Shown: positions 10,582 to 61,208 of the stretch, one piece after another
How the letters are laid out: every line of letters starts with the position of its first letter
How positions within the stretch are numbered: the stretch's first letter is position 1
DNA from: Hyphomicrobiales bacterium
GTDB lineage: Bacteria > Pseudomonadota > Alphaproteobacteria > Rhizobiales > Methylopilaceae
DNA: 64,000 bases
Direction: 5' to 3'
NCBI GenBank assembly: GCA_022842205.1
Contig: JALHQA010000003.1
Coordinates: 124,001 to 188,000, forward strand
The notes under the pieces: generated by a model
Databases searched by the model: none
What the model saw: only the letters and a program-made list of their open reading frames with translations
Told to the model about the DNA's origin: nothing
Made by a program: the position numbers and the translations under genes

Positions 10582-11280
10582 ATGCTTGATCTATCTCTCG
10601 CAGGGCGCATCCATTTCCGGCATCGCACGCCGTCGCAGGCTCCGCTTCCGCCCGGTCTGCACAAAACCGGCCTTTACGAAAAACGCGATTATCATCTCGT
10701 CGTTCCGGAAAAGCTCGATCCACGCACGCCTGCCCCGCTGATGGTGATGTTTCATGGCGGGGGCGGAAGCGCCGAGAGGATCATGCCGGTCATGAAAGCT
10801 CATGCGGAGGAACACGGCTTTCTTCTTCTCGTGCCGCAATCCTTCATGGCGACATGGGACATCGTCATCGCCGGCAACGGGCCGGATCGCGAGCGCCTTG
10901 AGAACGCACTCAACTGGGTTGCCGACCGCTACACGCTGCGTCCCGACAAATTCGCGTTCGCCGGCCATTCCGACGGCGGTTCCTATTCGCTGTCGAATGG
11001 CGTTGCGAACGGGGACTTCGTCACGCACATCCTCGCATTCTCGGCGGGGTTCTTCTCACCGCTGCATCAGGAAGGCGCGCCGCATATTTTCATCGCCCAC
11101 GGCTCGAAAGACGAAAAGACGCCCGTCGAAACCGCCGGCCGCGCCAGCGCGTTGAAATTGAAGGCGGCGGGTTATGACGTCACTTATCTTGAGTATGATG
11201 GTCCGCATGCCTCCCAGCCGCCGATCGTAGCTGTCGGCGTCAATTACTTCCTGAACTATCCGAAGGTTCCGAACGCCTAG
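10582..11280 (+). CDS. Alpha/beta hydrolase, PHB-depolymerase-like esterase
   Basis: 232-residue alpha/beta hydrolase of the LpqC/polyhydroxybutyrate-depolymerase-like group. The oxyanion stretch is MVMFHGGGGSAE (about residues 54-65), the nucleophile elbow GHSDGG (about 132-137) and a late His lies in YDGPHASQP. An Asp in HGSKDEKTP completes the triad. No signal peptide is seen, so it is probably cytoplasmic. Substrate is unknown. It ends in a CTAG shared with the convergent cytochrome gene. Confidence 0.82.
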   Translation: MLDLSLAGRIHFRHRTPSQAPLPPGLHKTGLYEKRDYHLVVPEKLDPRTPAPLMVMFHGGGGSAERIMPVMKAHAEEHGFLLLVPQSFMATWDIVIAGNGPDRERLENALNWVADRYTLRPDKFAFAGHSDGGSYSLSNGVANGDFVTHILAFSAGFFSPLHQEGAPHIFIAHGSKDEKTPVETAGRASALKLKAAGYDVTYLEYDGPHASQPPIVAVGVNYFLNYPKVPNA

Positions 11281-55922: not shown

Positions 55923-56693
55923 TCAGCCCTTCACCAGAGTCGGCCCGGGTTTCGCAGCCGGATTATCGCTTTCGGTCAGGATGCCAAGCCGCTTTGCGAC
56001 TTCGCTGTACGCCTCGACCAGCCCGCCGAGATCGCGGCGGAAACGGTCCTTGTCCATTTTTTCGTTCGTCTTCATGTCCCACAGGCGGCAGGAATCCGGG
56101 CTGATCTCATCGGCAACGACAATACGCACCATGTCGTTTTCCCAGAGCCGGCCGCATTCCATCTTGAAGTCGACAAGACGTATGCCGGCGCCAAGGAACA
56201 GTCCGGACAGGAAATCGTTTACGCGGATCGCGAGCGACATGATGTCGTCGATCTCCTGCGGCGCGGCCCAGCCGAACGCGGTGATGTGCTCTTCGGAGAC
56301 CATAGGGTCTCCGAGCGCATCGTTCTTGTAATAGAACTCAATGATCGAGCGCGGCAGCTGCGTGCCTTCCTCGATGCCAAGGCGCGTCGACAGCGAGCCG
56401 GCGGCGACATTGCGGACAACGACTTCGAGCGGAATGATCTCGACTTCACGGATCAGCTGCTCGCGCATGTTGAGGCGGCGCAGGAAATGCGTCGGCACGC
56501 CGATGTCGTTCAGATTCTGGAAGATGTATTCTGAGATGCGGTTATTCAGCACGCCCTTGCCGTCGATGATCTCGTGTTTCTTGGCGTTGAAGGCGGTCGC
56601 ATCGTCCTTGAAATGCTGGACAAGCGTTCCTGGCTCGGGACCCTCATAGAGGATCTTCGCCTTGCCCTCGTAAATTCGGCGGCGGCGGTTCAT
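55923..56693 (-). CDS. purC: SAICAR synthetase PurC
   Basis: 256-residue enzyme that joins CAIR and aspartate in purine synthesis. It begins [18 protein letters not shown], with [14 protein letters not shown] and [10 protein letters not shown] and [16 protein letters not shown]. The start at 56693 is the conserved one; the frame is open to 57167 but is not conserved. It lies upstream of purS on the same strand, beyond the palindromic repeats. Confidence 0.96.
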
Positions 56694-56897: not shown

Positions 56898-57212
56898 ATG
56901 ACGACCTTCGACGACCGCGAGGCCGCCTTCGAGCGCAAATTCGTTCTCGACGAGGATCAGAAGTTCCGGGCCATGGCCCGGCGCAACCGCATGCTGGGCC
57001 TCTGGGCGGCAGACAAGCTGGGTAAGGTCGGCGAGGAAGCCGACGCCTACGCCAAGGCCGTGGTCCATGCCGATTTCGCCGAAGCCGGCGAAGACGATGT
57101 CTTCAGGAAGCTCCGGGACGATCTCGACCCGTCGGTGACCGACGAGGACATCCGCCGCGCCATGCAAGATCTCCTCGACAAGGCCGCGGCCGAGGTCAAA
57201 GCCGGGTCCTGA
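56898..57212 (+). CDS. DUF1476 protein, F1-ATPase zeta-subunit-like inhibitor
   Basis: 104-residue DUF1476 protein, an alphaproteobacterial family whose Paracoccus member is the F1-ATPase inhibitory zeta subunit. It begins [23 protein letters not shown]. The N-terminal inhibitory segment (about 1-20) matches, and the middle is helical ([21 protein letters not shown]). It is divergent from purC, as in many members of this class. Confidence 0.9.
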
Positions 57213-57254: not shown

Positions 57255-57280
57255 GGAACTCCTACCCCCGGCCTCACGTT
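57255..57280 (+). promoter_or_regulatory. EcfG-type promoter upstream of the first SH3b gene
   Basis: GGAAC (57255-57259), a 17-base spacer and CGTT (57277-57280), an exact match to the general-stress consensus. It lies 58 bases before the start codon of the SH3b gene. This points to control by EcfG/PhyR. Confidence 0.65.
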
Positions 57281-57337: not shown

Positions 57338-58099
57338 ATGATGTCCCGTAAGACAACCGTCAGCGCGGCCGCGTTGCTTCTGGCTTCGGCCGGCGCCGCT
57401 GCCGCGTTCCCCGCCACCGCCACCACGGACCTCAACGTGCGCTCCGGTCCCGGTACGGGCTACCGCGTCGTGGATCAGCTCCAGCCGGGCCAGACCGTAG
57501 AGGTCACGGGTCAGCAGGGCTCCTGGTACGAGATCGAGGGTCAAGGCTGGGCGAGCGCCAACTATATGGATGCCCAGGGCGGCCGTAGCGCTGTCATCAT
57601 CGACCGCGGATACGATTATGGACCGACCGCCTTCTATTACGGCAACGATCCTTACTACTGGGATGACGCCGGATTCTATTTCTACGTCCGCGACGGCAGA
57701 CGCCACCGCGTCGGCTGGGATTGGTTCCGCGATCGCGATTATCGCCGCGACTTCCGCTGGTCGGATAATCGCCGGCGCGGCGATTTTGAACGCCGCTGGA
57801 GCCGTCGGGACAATGATGGCGATCGTCGCCGCGTAGGCGATGCTGACCAGCGCCGGGGCGATGGCGATCTCGATCGCAACGGCGAGATGCGGCGCGGCGA
57901 GCGTATCGAGCGCGACGAAGCCAATATCCGCGTAGAGGGCGACCGCGATGTCCGCTCGGGCCGGGCGTCTGCGGAAGGCGAAGGTCGCGTCCGTCGCGAC
58001 GGCACGCTGCATGGCGGCGATCGTGATCGCGGCCCCAGCGGCGGCCGCCAGGGTGGCCAGCCCCGCGTCCTCGAAGAGGTCCCCGGCGGCGGATACTGA
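57338..58099 (+). CDS. Secreted SH3b-domain protein with Arg/Asp-rich tail (paralogue 1)
   Basis: 253-residue exported protein. A signal peptide (ending AAAAFP) is followed by one bacterial SH3 domain (about 27-85: NVRSGPGTGYRVVDQLQPGQ, EIEGQGWASANYM). The tail holds YFYVRDGRRHRV and a long run of Arg and Asp (DRDYRRDFRW). The SH3b domain may bind peptidoglycan; the tail may bind polyanions. GGAGG precedes the start. It has its own promoter and terminator. Confidence 0.88.
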   Translation: MMSRKTTVSAAALLLASAGAAAAFPATATTDLNVRSGPGTGYRVVDQLQPGQTVEVTGQQGSWYEIEGQGWASANYMDAQGGRSAVIIDRGYDYGPTAFYYGNDPYYWDDAGFYFYVRDGRRHRVGWDWFRDRDYRRDFRWSDNRRRGDFERRWSRRDNDGDRRRVGDADQRRGDGDLDRNGEMRRGERIERDEANIRVEGDRDVRSGRASAEGEGRVRRDGTLHGGDRDRGPSGGRQGGQPRVLEEVPGGGY

Positions 58100-58111
58100 C
58101 TTATACATACA

Positions 58112-58141
58112 TCAGCCCGCCGGAGCTTTCCGGCGGGCTGA
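58112..58141 (+). terminator. Hairpin after the first SH3b gene
   Basis: TCAGCCCGCCGG and CCGGCGGGCTGA form a perfect 12-pair stem around AGCTTT. No long T run follows on the plus strand, so it may stabilise the 3' end or terminate weakly. Confidence 0.65.
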
Positions 58142-58144
58142 AAA

Positions 58145-58160
58145 CTGAACATTTGTTCAG
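58145..58160. promoter_or_regulatory. Perfect inverted repeat in the gap before the second SH3b gene
   Basis: CTGAACATTTGTTCAG, six-base arms with a four-base spacer. It lies 118 bases before the start of the second SH3b gene and could be an operator. There is no evidence for the binder. Confidence 0.35.
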
Positions 58161-58277
58161 ATAATTCTCTCCAGTATTTTACTGGATTCCCCGGTCATAC
58201 ACCCCACATCTGATCCATCGCCCGGCGCTTGCCGGCAAGTCTTTCGCGCGGTCGGCCGCGTAGGGAGGAATGTACAG

Positions 58278-58796
58278 ATGAAGCTGTTCAAATCTACTGG
58301 CGGAGCGCTGGCAATGTTATTGGTCTCGGCCGCAGCCGCGGCCGCGTTTCCCGCCACCTCGACAACCAGCCTGAACGTCCGCTCCGGTCCGGGCACGAAC
58401 TATCGCGTGGTAGATACGTTAAGGCCCGGCGAAACCGTGGATGTCACTAGCCGGCGCGGATCCTGGTATCAGATCGACGGCGGCGGCTGGGCCAGCGCGG
58501 CCTATCTTGCCACGGGTGGCGGCGCAGCGGTCTACGAAGAGGATGTTTATGTCGACGACAGCCCGTATTATTACGGGCGTCCATACATAGGTTTCGGCTA
58601 TTCCTCCTACCGGAATTACTGGCGTCCGGACCATCGCTGGCGCCCGGGGCACCATTGGCGACCCGGCAAGCCGGGCCGGCCAGGGCATCATTACCGCCAC
58701 CGGCGTTACGGCTCTGGGGGAATCGCCAAATTCGATCACCAACGTCGCGGCTCTCGCGCAGGCGGCTCGCAGAGATGGTATCCAGGCCGCCACTAG
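58278..58796 (+). CDS. Secreted SH3b-domain protein with Pro/His/Arg/Gly-rich tail (paralogue 2)
   Basis: 172-residue paralogue of the preceding gene: a signal peptide (ending AAAAFP), SH3b domain (NVRSGPGTNYRVVDTLRPGE, QIDGGGWASAAYL) and a short tail rich in Tyr, His, Pro and Arg (WRPDHRWRPGHHWRPGKPG). It lacks the YVRDGRRHRV motif. GGGAGGAA precedes the start. The basic tail suggests contact with acidic polymers. Confidence 0.87.
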   Translation: MKLFKSTGGALAMLLVSAAAAAAFPATSTTSLNVRSGPGTNYRVVDTLRPGETVDVTSRRGSWYQIDGGGWASAAYLATGGGAAVYEEDVYVDDSPYYYGRPYIGFGYSSYRNYWRPDHRWRPGHHWRPGKPGRPGHHYRHRRYGSGGIAKFDHQRRGSRAGGSQRWYPGRH

Positions 58797-58816
58797 GCCA
58801 CACGACATAAAACATC

Positions 58817-58844
58817 AAAACCCGCCGGAAACGGCGGGTTTTTT
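58817..58844. terminator. Hairpin terminator after the second SH3b gene
   Basis: AAAACCCGCCG and CGGCGGGTTTTTT around GAAA. It closely resembles the terminator of the third gene, so it was probably duplicated with the gene. Confidence 0.85.
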
Positions 58845-59181
58845 AGATTTGGCGTGGATCATGATTCCATTACCGCATCTCCCTACGGCGACCTCGTGCG
58901 CCAGCCGGCAGAACGGAAGCCCGTCCTCCGTGCGAGCTTCTCTTTTCTTGCCTTCATCTTTCTTGTACCGACAATATGGCCGCGCAAATCTATGATGGCT
59001 GGATAATAGCTGCCAATTTGTACATATTCTAGCAACACGCTTTGAGTACTGCTTCCTGAACATGAACAGACATTCATAACGCAACACAAATTCGTCATCC
59101 CATTGGAAGCGTTGGATACACATTCATATGTGCGCGTTATCCGATTGGGAAAGTCAAAACAGTTCAGGGAGAGACTCAGAA
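58845..59181. other. Intergenic region between the second and third SH3b genes
   Basis: About 340 bases with lower G+C than the rest. I find no convincing gene: open frames here lack family features. It probably holds the promoter and leader of the third gene, whose SD-like GGGAGAG precedes the ATG at 59182. I see no EcfG motif. Confidence 0.5.
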
Positions 59182-59850
59182 ATGAAATTTGGAAAAACAA
59201 CCGCAAGCGTGCTTTCACTTGTCCTTGGATCGGCAACCGTTGCAGCGGCTTTTCCCGCGACGTCCACGACAAGTCTCAACGTTCGTTCAGGACCCGGGAC
59301 GGGTTATGCCGTTGTCGATACACTTCGGCCCGGTGAGACCGTCGATGTTACGGCACAGAGCGGCGGCTGGTATGAGGTCGACGGTCAGGGATGGGCCAGC
59401 GCGAACTATCTCGACGCCGGCGGCGGCTATTCGACGTCCTATTATCAGGACGACGGGTACTATGCGGGTTACGGCCCCGCGTCGTACTACTATGGAAGTT
59501 ATCCGGCGTATTACTCTGGCGGAGTCTACTTCTATGTCCGTGACGGCCGCCGCCACCGCGTCGACCGGAGTGATCTGCGCGAGGCAAGGCGTGAGGTTCG
59601 GCGCGAACGCCGCGACGTGCAGAACGCTCGCGAGGAACGCCGCGAACTTCGTGGGGACCGCAATGAATCCCGCCGTGAGGTAAGACAGTTGCGACGCGAC
59701 GATGCCCCGCGTGCGGAACGCCGCGAAGCCCGCCGGGATTTGCGTCAGGATCGCCGCGAACTCCGTGAGGGACGGGCATCCGTTCGCCAGGAACGCCGTG
59801 AACTACGCGGCGCCCGCCAGGAGCTTATCGAGGAACGCCGCGGTCGCTAA
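59182..59850 (+). CDS. Secreted SH3b-domain protein with charged coiled-coil tail (paralogue 3)
   Basis: 222-residue paralogue. A signal peptide and SH3b domain (NVRSGPGTGYAVVDTLRPGE, EVDGQGWASANYL) are followed by YFYVRDGRRHRV, as in the first, then about 85 residues of alternating Arg and Glu (RREVRRERRDVQNAREERRE) that should form a long charged helix. Its DNA repeats GAACGCCG-type units. The start at 59182 is chosen from the signal peptide. Confidence 0.87.
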   Translation: MKFGKTTASVLSLVLGSATVAAAFPATSTTSLNVRSGPGTGYAVVDTLRPGETVDVTAQSGGWYEVDGQGWASANYLDAGGGYSTSYYQDDGYYAGYGPASYYYGSYPAYYSGGVYFYVRDGRRHRVDRSDLREARREVRRERRDVQNAREERRELRGDRNESRREVRQLRRDDAPRAERREARRDLRQDRRELREGRASVRQERRELRGARQELIEERRGR

Positions 59851-59870
59851 AAATGCCGCAGTAAAAACGA

Positions 59871-59900
59871 AAAGCCCGCCGGAAAACGGCGGGCTTTTTT
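59871..59900. terminator. Bidirectional terminator between the third SH3b gene and purB
   Basis: AAAGCCCGCCG and CGGCGGGCTTTTTTT around GAAAA. It closely matches the terminator of the second gene. On the minus strand it ends purB. Confidence 0.9.
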
Positions 59901-61208
59901 TCAGGCGCGGCCGAACACGCGGCTGAAGATCGTATCGACATGCTTGAAATGATAACCGAGATCGAACAGCGCCTCGATTTCGGCAGGCGGCAAGAGCTTC
60001 GTCACATCCTTGTCGGCCTTCAGGAGCGTGAGGAAATCCCCCTCCCCGCGCCAGACCGGCATCGCATTGCGCTGAACGAGTACATACGCATCCTCGCGGC
60101 TCGCGCCCTTTTGCGTCAGGGCAAGCAGCACGCGCTGCGAATGTACAAGACCGCCAAGGAGATCGAGATTTTTCTGCATACGCTCCGGGTAGACGACAAG
60201 CTTCTCGACGACGCCGGCAAGCCGGTTCAGCGCGAAATCGAGCGTCACAGTCGCATCCGGCCCGATCATGCGCTCGACGGAAGAATGCGAAATATCGCGC
60301 TCGTGCCACAGCGCGACATTCTCCAGAGCCGGGATCGCGTAGGCGCGGACCATGCGGGCCAGGCCCGTCAGGTTCTCCGTCAATACCGGATTGCGCTTGT
60401 GCGGCATGGCCGACGAGCCCTTCTGGCCCGGCGAGAAATATTCCTCCGCCTCCAGGACCTCGGTGCGCTGCATGTGGCGGATTTCAATCGAAAGATGCTC
60501 GACCGACGAGGCGACGACCGCCAACGCGGAGAAAAAGGCCGCATGGCGGTCGCGCGGGATCACCTGCGTCGATACCGGTTCCGGCTCTAGCCCCATCGCT
60601 TTGGCGACATGCTCCTCGACGCGCGGATCGACATTGGCGAATGTACCGACAGCGCCCGAGATTGCACAAGTCGCGACCTCCCTGCGCGCTTCCTCAAGCC
60701 TCCGCTTGGCACGAGAGAACTCGGCATAATATCCGGCGAGCTTCAGGCCGAACGTCACCGGCTCGGCATGGATACCGTGCGAGCGGCCGATGGCCGGCGT
60801 CATCTTGTACTCGAAGGCGCGCGTCTTCAGTGCCGCGAGAACCTTGTCGACATCTGCGATCAGAATGTCCGCCGCGCGCACGAGCTGCACGTTGAAGCAG
60901 GTGTCGAGCACATCCGACGACGTCATGCCCTGGTGTACGAACCTCGCATCCTCGCCTATGAATTCCGCGAGATGCGTGAGGAAGGCGATGACATCGTGCT
61001 TGGTCTCACGCTCGATCTCGTCGATGCGCGCGACGTTGAACTCGGCCTTGCCGCCCTTGTCCCAGATCGTCTTGGCCGCCGACTTCGGGATGACGCCGAT
61101 CTCCGCCAGCGCGTCGGCCGCGTGAGCTTCGATCTCGAACCAGATGCGGAAGCGCGTCTCCGGGGACCAGACCGCTGTCATGTCGGGACGTGAATAGCGC
61201 GGGATCAT
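59901..61208 (-). CDS. purB: Adenylosuccinate lyase PurB
   Basis: 435-residue lyase that works twice in purine synthesis (SAICAR and adenylosuccinate cleavage). Signature: [18 protein letters not shown] (near residue 260), with [14 protein letters not shown] and [10 protein letters not shown], all conserved. It begins [17 protein letters not shown]. Its ATG overlaps the rpe stop by four bases. Confidence 0.97.

Follow-up and report, generated by a model that had tools for sequence, protein, structure and literature searches.

In the genome of a Hyphomicrobiales bacterium of the family Methylopilaceae (GenBank assembly GCA_022842205.1), we analysed a window of 64,000 nucleotides (nt) of contig JALHQA010000003.1 (positions 124,001 to 188,000 of the forward strand), in which three tandem genes, here called copies 1, 2 and 3, encode proteins with an export-like N-terminus, one bacterial SH3 (SH3b) domain and a low-complexity tail. 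These genes belong to an old and conserved SH3b locus that has been expanded in tandem within one Hyphomicrobiales genus. Copy 1 is preceded by a promoter motif of the EcfG type, the signature of the general stress response, and copies 2 and 3 by a different, palindromic element; this regulatory side of the locus lay beyond the reach of the initial annotation of the sequence. Because the EcfG-type signature precedes copy 1 and many of its relatives, it suggests that such SH3b proteins are made as part of the general stress response. We hold with middling confidence that the outputs of that response repeatedly include exported SH3b proteins, so far unlisted as such, in many Hyphomicrobiales families, and that in this genus an ancestral stress copy was duplicated, the new-tailed extra copies moving to a TGAAC-N4-GTTCA regulon that would also drive an Arg/Pro-rich OmpA protein. 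The SH3b domain class is known; the novelty lies in the regulation of the locus and, for copies 1 and 3, in the inheritance of the tails.

The promoter motif was scanned for in the 200 bases upstream of 25 SH3b genes of the family, with a spacer of 16 or 17; ten of these genes come from the genus of the window genome, two from G005, which belongs to another genus, and 13 from the genus g2. The exact motif, GGAAC-N16/17-CGTT, stands before six of the 25 (copy 1, i.e., win_SH1, and G001_a, G002_a, G002_c, G003_a, and G003_b), compared with 0.05 genes in 300 dinucleotide shuffles (maximum 1), and when one mismatch is allowed the number rises to 19, compared with 1.4 (maximum 6). If only AAC is kept in the upstream element (NNAAC-N16/17-CGTT), 18 of the 25 genes carry the motif, whereas replacing AAC by the other 63 trinucleotides gives an average of 0.8 genes and at most five, and spacers of 10-15 and 18-25 give none or one. 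The same NNAAC motif is absent from all 55 control upstream regions (zeta 18, purB 18, purS 5, purQ 5, purC 5, and rpe 4), from which matches starting after the first three residues or having fewer than 200 bases upstream had been excluded.

A similar picture emerges from other families of the order, where the exact motif was found before 22 of 82 sampled SH3b genes, in nine of 19 families, 16 times at spacer 16 and six times at spacer 17; about one is expected from the motif density in the same loci, and the off-spacers tested in the range 8 to 27 yielded one gene at 13 and none at the other 17. These 82 genes match profile A5, which covers the signal peptide, the SH3b domain, and the Tyr-rich module, and were selected by the profile match alone; they were hand-picked among the matches listed, excluding loci already analysed, the family of the window genome and some others (e.g., very long open frames). 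The exact motif is lacking in f11 and f32 (0/5 each), f50 (0/4), f29, f41, and f51 (0/2 each), and f2, f5, f13, and f44 (0/1 each). Because seven of the 22 genes come from family f35 and are probably orthologous, the independent origins are fewer than 22. In a further set of 35 loci, of which 31 were usable (four had no BLAST start; the pairs L020/L087 and L025/L096 each represent a single gene), the AAC-keeping motif was present in 11, four of them orthologous within one genus. The exact motif also occurs before the SH3b genes of L085-L088, L029, L035, L036, L092, and L094, which lie in other Hyphomicrobiales families and at other genomic places. Elsewhere in the window, exact GGAAC-N16-CGTT sites occur at 10682-10706 (- strand) and at 56195-56219 (+ strand), the latter lying antisense within purC and probably there by chance.

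The published consensus of EcfG, as given in two reports, is GGAAC-N16-CGTT in Rhizobium etli (PMC3892343) and in Sphingopyxis, where AAC is almost invariant (PMC7083833); for Sphingomonas, GGAAC-N17-20-GTT is given (PMC6599016). The window genome holds the exact motif 70 times, as against 23 occurrences of the reversed control pattern, and one of the 70 lies about 190 bases before the NepR domain. NepR is present in all 18 genomes of the family, and the exact motif precedes nepR in the four genomes of the genus and also in G005. The likeness to the known EcfG/PhyR/NepR general stress regulon of Alphaproteobacteria consists of the exact consensus motif before copy 1 and relatives, together with the presence of NepR. 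The sites might instead be read by an extracytoplasmic function (ECF) sigma factor other than EcfG, given that the -35 element in genus g2 is TGAAC, CGAAC, or GAAAC and not GGAAC; the agreement with the R. etli and Sphingopyxis consensus and the exact motif before nepR itself speak for EcfG, and we regard another ECF factor as improbable. Among the literature matches listed, no paper linked SH3 proteins to EcfG, PhyR, RpoE2, or the general stress response, supplementary regulon tables being outside the search; such a link may already sit in a regulon table.

Copies 2 and 3 are preceded by the palindrome TGAAC-N4-GTTCA, exact in the former case and imperfect in the latter (Table 1), and G002_c has an exact copy 129 bases upstream. 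The genus genomes contain three (G000), three (G003), one (G001), and six (G002) exact sites, and the reversed control pattern, counted on one strand, occurs once in G000 and in none of the other three. In all four genomes, the same OmpA gene (L244-L247) has one exact site about 85-200 bases before it; its product combines an export-like N-terminus (judged by eye) and a long stretch rich in Arg, Pro, and Gln with an OmpA domain at the C-terminus (Pfam E 1.8e-12 to 8.6e-16). A family-wide search for TGAACRGATGTTCA found it also in three g2 genomes, at other genes.

The locus itself is old. A profile built from the three copies matched 31 of the 61 genomes to which it was applied and all 18 of the family; a close-relative search of genome contigs with copy 3 returned none, and an alignment search returned four loci. 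In each of the 18 family genomes, one to four SH3b genes lie near the genes for the ATPase inhibitor subunit zeta and purB, and in the loci fetched from the 17 relatives the distances are 87-1044 bases to the zeta gene (about 1 kb in ten g2 genomes) and 16-3637 bases to purB (2-3.6 kb in G006, G008, G009, G013, and G017). The copy number at this site is three in the window genome, one in G001, four in G002, two in G003, two in G005, and one in each of the 13 g2 genomes. Outside the family, the zeta/purB neighbourhood was seen in G048 and in six of 80 loci of the order (f32, 5/5 genes; f35, 1/8). The window genome (2.78 Mb, 17 contigs) contains six places with an SH3_3 domain, three of which lie at this locus.

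The initial annotation had described the three genes as a tandem triplicate of paralogues, and this is borne out: three + strand genes carry one SH3_3 domain each, and a tree of the window copies with 22 relatives (25 proteins) places all ten genus proteins in a single supported set (96/81), within which the branching order is mostly open. Copy 3 matches copy 1 with an E value of about 1e-34, far beyond chance. Unrelated insertions are rejected by the similarity of the N-termini and SH3b domains as well as by the supported set. The description of this shared anchor as nearly unchanged was right in that it is kept while the tails differ, but overstated, because the window copies are identical at 39, 43, and 45 of 57 positions over residues 24-80 and at only 11-13 of 23 in the signal peptides. 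Between the SH3b domains of the window copies, the synonymous divergence (dS) is 1.3-2.0, which is saturated, and the nonsynonymous divergence (dN) is 0.18-0.25; the duplication is therefore old and the domain constrained.

In contrast to the anchor, the tails are of three different low-complexity kinds, as initially described, with Arg 23%, Gly 16%, and Asp 15% as the commonest residues in copy 1, Arg 17%, Gly 16%, and Tyr 13% in copy 2, and Arg 29%, Glu 12%, and Tyr 10% in copy 3. The initial annotation took this as a sign that the copies may have diversified to bind different polymers at the cell wall. Its further proposal that the tails had been swapped does not hold for copies 1 and 3. 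When tail comparisons were scored against 300 residue shuffles, the copy 3 tail matched G002_c with z 48, and the copy 1 tail matched G003_a and G001_a with z 25 each and G002_a with z 19.5. Sequence comparison thus shows, for copies 1 and 3 but not for copy 2, tail types that are inherited across species and are therefore not freshly swapped; together with the dN/dS ratio below, these matches rule fresh swapping out for both copies. The copy 3 tail is, judged by its divergence from G002_c (dN 0.19, dS 1.89, dN/dS near 0.1), as constrained as a domain. Copies 1 and 3 also resemble each other (z 12), but because the distal part reaches a z of only 1.2, this similarity comes from a Tyr-rich module containing YFYVRDGRRHRV, the shared sequence reported initially, which is letter-for-letter identical in the two copies. 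Pfam recognized no family in three fragments of this module even at E 10, and a supposed resemblance of the 'GRRH' stretch to BA14K was dropped because hmmscan of the same fragments was empty up to that value.

A tetrapeptide, GRAS, occurs in eight of the ten genus tails and in none of the 13 of g2 (2000 shuffles gave 0.11 on average and at most 2); since the ten proteins are related, they do not count as ten independent events. The tails of copies 1 and 3 and of the relatives in L041-L043 that keep it are otherwise different.

These comparisons bear on two further views of the tails. According to the first, the tails are for the most part neutral extensions of low complexity that drift fast, function resides only in the signal peptide, SH3b domain, and Tyr-rich module, and the triplicate serves gene dosage. 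The single-copy relatives in g2 also have divergent R/G/D/P-rich low-complexity tails, and tail turnover is therefore normal in these proteins; moreover, the copy 2 tail scores only z 2.8 against its positional counterpart G002_b (distal part -0.4) and matches best G005_b of another genus (z 7.5, fading to 1.2 distally), and copies 1 and 3 show no match in their distal tails. On the other hand, the low dN/dS of the copy 3 tail, the persistence of GRAS, and the recurrence of the copy 1 and copy 3 tail types at the corresponding positions in G002 speak against drift, and we consider mostly neutral tails rather unlikely. According to the second view, the tails change rapidly to escape recognition, like antigens or phage receptors. 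Paralogues with strongly different tails behind a kept N-terminus would fit such variation, yet the duplications are old, species share the tails of copies 1 and 3 by inheritance, and dN is nowhere above dS in the compared regions for which dS is finite. Diversifying selection was rejected on the last ground, and the view as a whole is very improbable.

As for the SH3b domain, PF08239 (SH3_3) matches each window copy once with 55.4, 57.6, and 55.4 bits (curated cut-off 27) and is found in all 25 family proteins (E up to 0.01). Export had been predicted initially, and the sequence features agree: the three window proteins have a basic N-end, a hydrophobic core, an AxA cleavage-like site, and no lipobox cysteine, and AxA lies within residues 15-31 in all 25. 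Since the three contain no cysteine at all, they should not be lipoproteins, and we infer that they are periplasmic. The 15 family proteins from outside the genus have two cysteines (13 proteins) or three (two proteins), and in the genus only G003_b has any (two). The SH3b cysteine pair (C..WC) of relatives L045-L058 is missing in the other nine genus proteins (window copies, L041-L043), which suggests the loss of a disulfide.

The window proteins resemble other bacterial SH3 proteins (PF08239 SH3_3 and PF06347 SH3_4) in having a single SH3b domain behind a signal-like N-terminus, but have no catalytic domain, and their Tyr-rich module and tails lie outside Pfam coverage. With the SH3-and-anchor family TIGR04211, which we take to be YgiM-like, they share an N-terminal SH3b domain after a signal sequence; however, they score 22.9, 26.4, and 29.6 bits against a whole-protein cut-off of 65 and so fall outside this family, and no C-terminal hydrophobic anchor is seen in their sequences. 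The EntA/B/C/D/FM wall-binding proteins of NCBIfam show weak SH3b similarity to them, at below 31 bits against cut-offs of 560-780, and share the domain only. Among the solved chains closest to them in sequence are small SH3b domains that carry the labels enterotoxin and cell wall hydrolase (best E 3.9e-17). Such labels, and the frequent company of SH3b domains and wall hydrolases, raise the idea that the copies regulate or inhibit cell-wall enzymes, the SH3b being an enzyme- or peptide-binding module, and are not structural staples. This too seems of low probability, as Pfam finds a hydrolase domain in none of the 25 family members and no wall enzyme is encoded by the neighbours that could be named (zeta, purB, purC, purS, purQ, and rpe).

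AlphaFold models of copies 1 and 3, made with nine sequences, predict the Tyr-rich module as a four-strand beta meander in both copies (block predicted local distance difference test, pLDDT, 78-89). In the copy 3 model, two long helices follow the module (129-174 and 177-221); in the copy 1 model, the pLDDT is mostly below 50 past about residue 172.

The reading that we prefer, though it could equally prove wrong, is that these are stress-made, wall-anchored envelope proteins with mostly cationic tails, duplicated and rewired. The SH3b proteins would be periplasmic and, as assumed from the domain, held on peptidoglycan by it. Their mostly basic tails could bridge to anionic partners such as lipopolysaccharide phosphates, nucleic acid, acidic glycans, or proteins, a role proposed because the net tail charge is positive in eight of the ten genus proteins (range -12 to +29), and this bridging would stiffen or repair the envelope under stress. 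Copy 1 would be induced in general stress, given its EcfG promoter motif. Duplication may then have supplied extra staples that differ in reach, being disordered, Pro/His-rich, or rigid helical, and may have placed the extra copies under a second regulator.

Several points weigh against this interpretation. Copies 2 and 3 have no EcfG motif in the 200 bases upstream, even with one mismatch, and the AAC-keeping motif is also missing at G002_d, G005_a, G006, G011, and G016. The variants in g2 are less secure because, in its 13 genomes, the region upstream of nepR has the exact motif once, the AAC-keeping variant three times, and neither within 350 bases in nine. The search for components of the EcfG system covered NepR alone. 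Peptidoglycan binding by this SH3b is an assumption, and because the cysteine pair has been lost in nine of the ten genus proteins, the anchor may have changed in the genus. The net tail charge is only +3 in copy 1, -12 in G002_a, and -6 in G003_b, which weakens a general polyanion-binding role. Finally, both models are weak, with a mean pLDDT of 59.4 for copy 1 and of 58.7 for copy 3 and with values below 50 over most of the SH3b domain of copy 3, and Foldseek found no match to either in the PDB below E 1.

The three open reading frames were listed at 57338-58099, 58278-58796, and 59128-59850, but homology and an upstream GGGAG read from the sequence place the start of copy 3 at 59182, 54 bases inside the listed frame. 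Because hairpins or terminator-like sites follow the genes and the gap upstream of each exceeds 120 bases, the three look like separate transcription units. The surrounding genes purB, purC, purS, purQ, and rpe are named from NCBIfam, all above the cut-offs. Coordinates are collected in Table 1.

Table 1. Features of the SH3b locus and its immediate surroundings, in window coordinates.
Feature	Position	Strand	Description
ATPase inhibitor subunit zeta gene	56898..57212	+	neighbour; PF07345 E 2.9e-37
EcfG-type motif GGAAC-N17-CGTT	57255..57280	+	exact; 83 nt upstream of copy 1 start codon
Copy 1 (SH1)	57338..58099	+	putative exported SH3b protein, 253 amino acids, Arg/Asp/Gly-rich tail
Putative signal peptide, copy 1	57338..57406	+	residues 1-23, AAA before FP; sequence reading
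SH3b domain, copy 1	57428..57568	+	residues 31-77; PF08239 E 7.1e-15
Tyr-rich module with YFYVRDGRRHRV, copy 1	57611..57718	+	about residues 92-127; four-strand beta meander predicted; block pLDDT 79-89
GRAS tetrapeptide, copy 1 tail	57959..57970	+	residues 208-211
Strong hairpin 3' of copy 1	58114..58139	+	sequence reading; no T-run; not in terminator scan
Palindrome TGAACATTTGTTCA	58146..58159	.	exact TGAAC-N4-GTTCA, 132 nt before copy 2; only exact copy in window
Copy 2 (SH2)	58278..58796	+	putative exported SH3b protein, 172 amino acids, Arg/Gly/Tyr/Pro/His-rich tail; YFYVRDGRRHRV motif absent
SH3b domain, copy 2	58368..58508	+	residues 31-77; PF08239 E 1.4e-15
Intrinsic-terminator-like site 3' of copy 2	58817..58842	+	terminator scan (both strands)
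Imperfect palindrome TGAACAGACATTCA	59063..59076	.	1 mismatch, 119 nt before copy 3; aligns with exact G002_c site
Copy 3 (SH3)	59182..59850	+	putative exported SH3b protein, 222 amino acids, Arg/Glu helical tail (predicted)
SH3b domain, copy 3	59272..59415	+	residues 31-78; PF08239 E 6.9e-15
Tyr-rich module with YFYVRDGRRHRV, copy 3	59479..59565	+	about residues 100-128; block pLDDT 78-86
Arg/Glu tail, copy 3	59566..59844	+	two predicted helices, residues 129-174 and 177-221; GRAS at 197-200
Hairpin between convergent copy 3 and purB	59870..59898	.	- strand in scan; T-run on + strand too
purB	59901..61208	-	neighbour; TIGR00928 E 5.4e-149

If this reading is true, the genus has a set of wall-anchored envelope proteins of low complexity that is divided between two regulators. 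The tandem locus provides natural variants within one cell, in which different tails sit behind a common anchor. Alphaproteobacteria are protected by the general stress response against many kinds of stress, yet many targets of this response are so far without a known function; in Sinorhizobium meliloti, no function is predicted for most RpoE2-dependent genes (PMC6180224). The clear statistical link between the promoter motif of the response and SH3b genes would provide a testable envelope branch.

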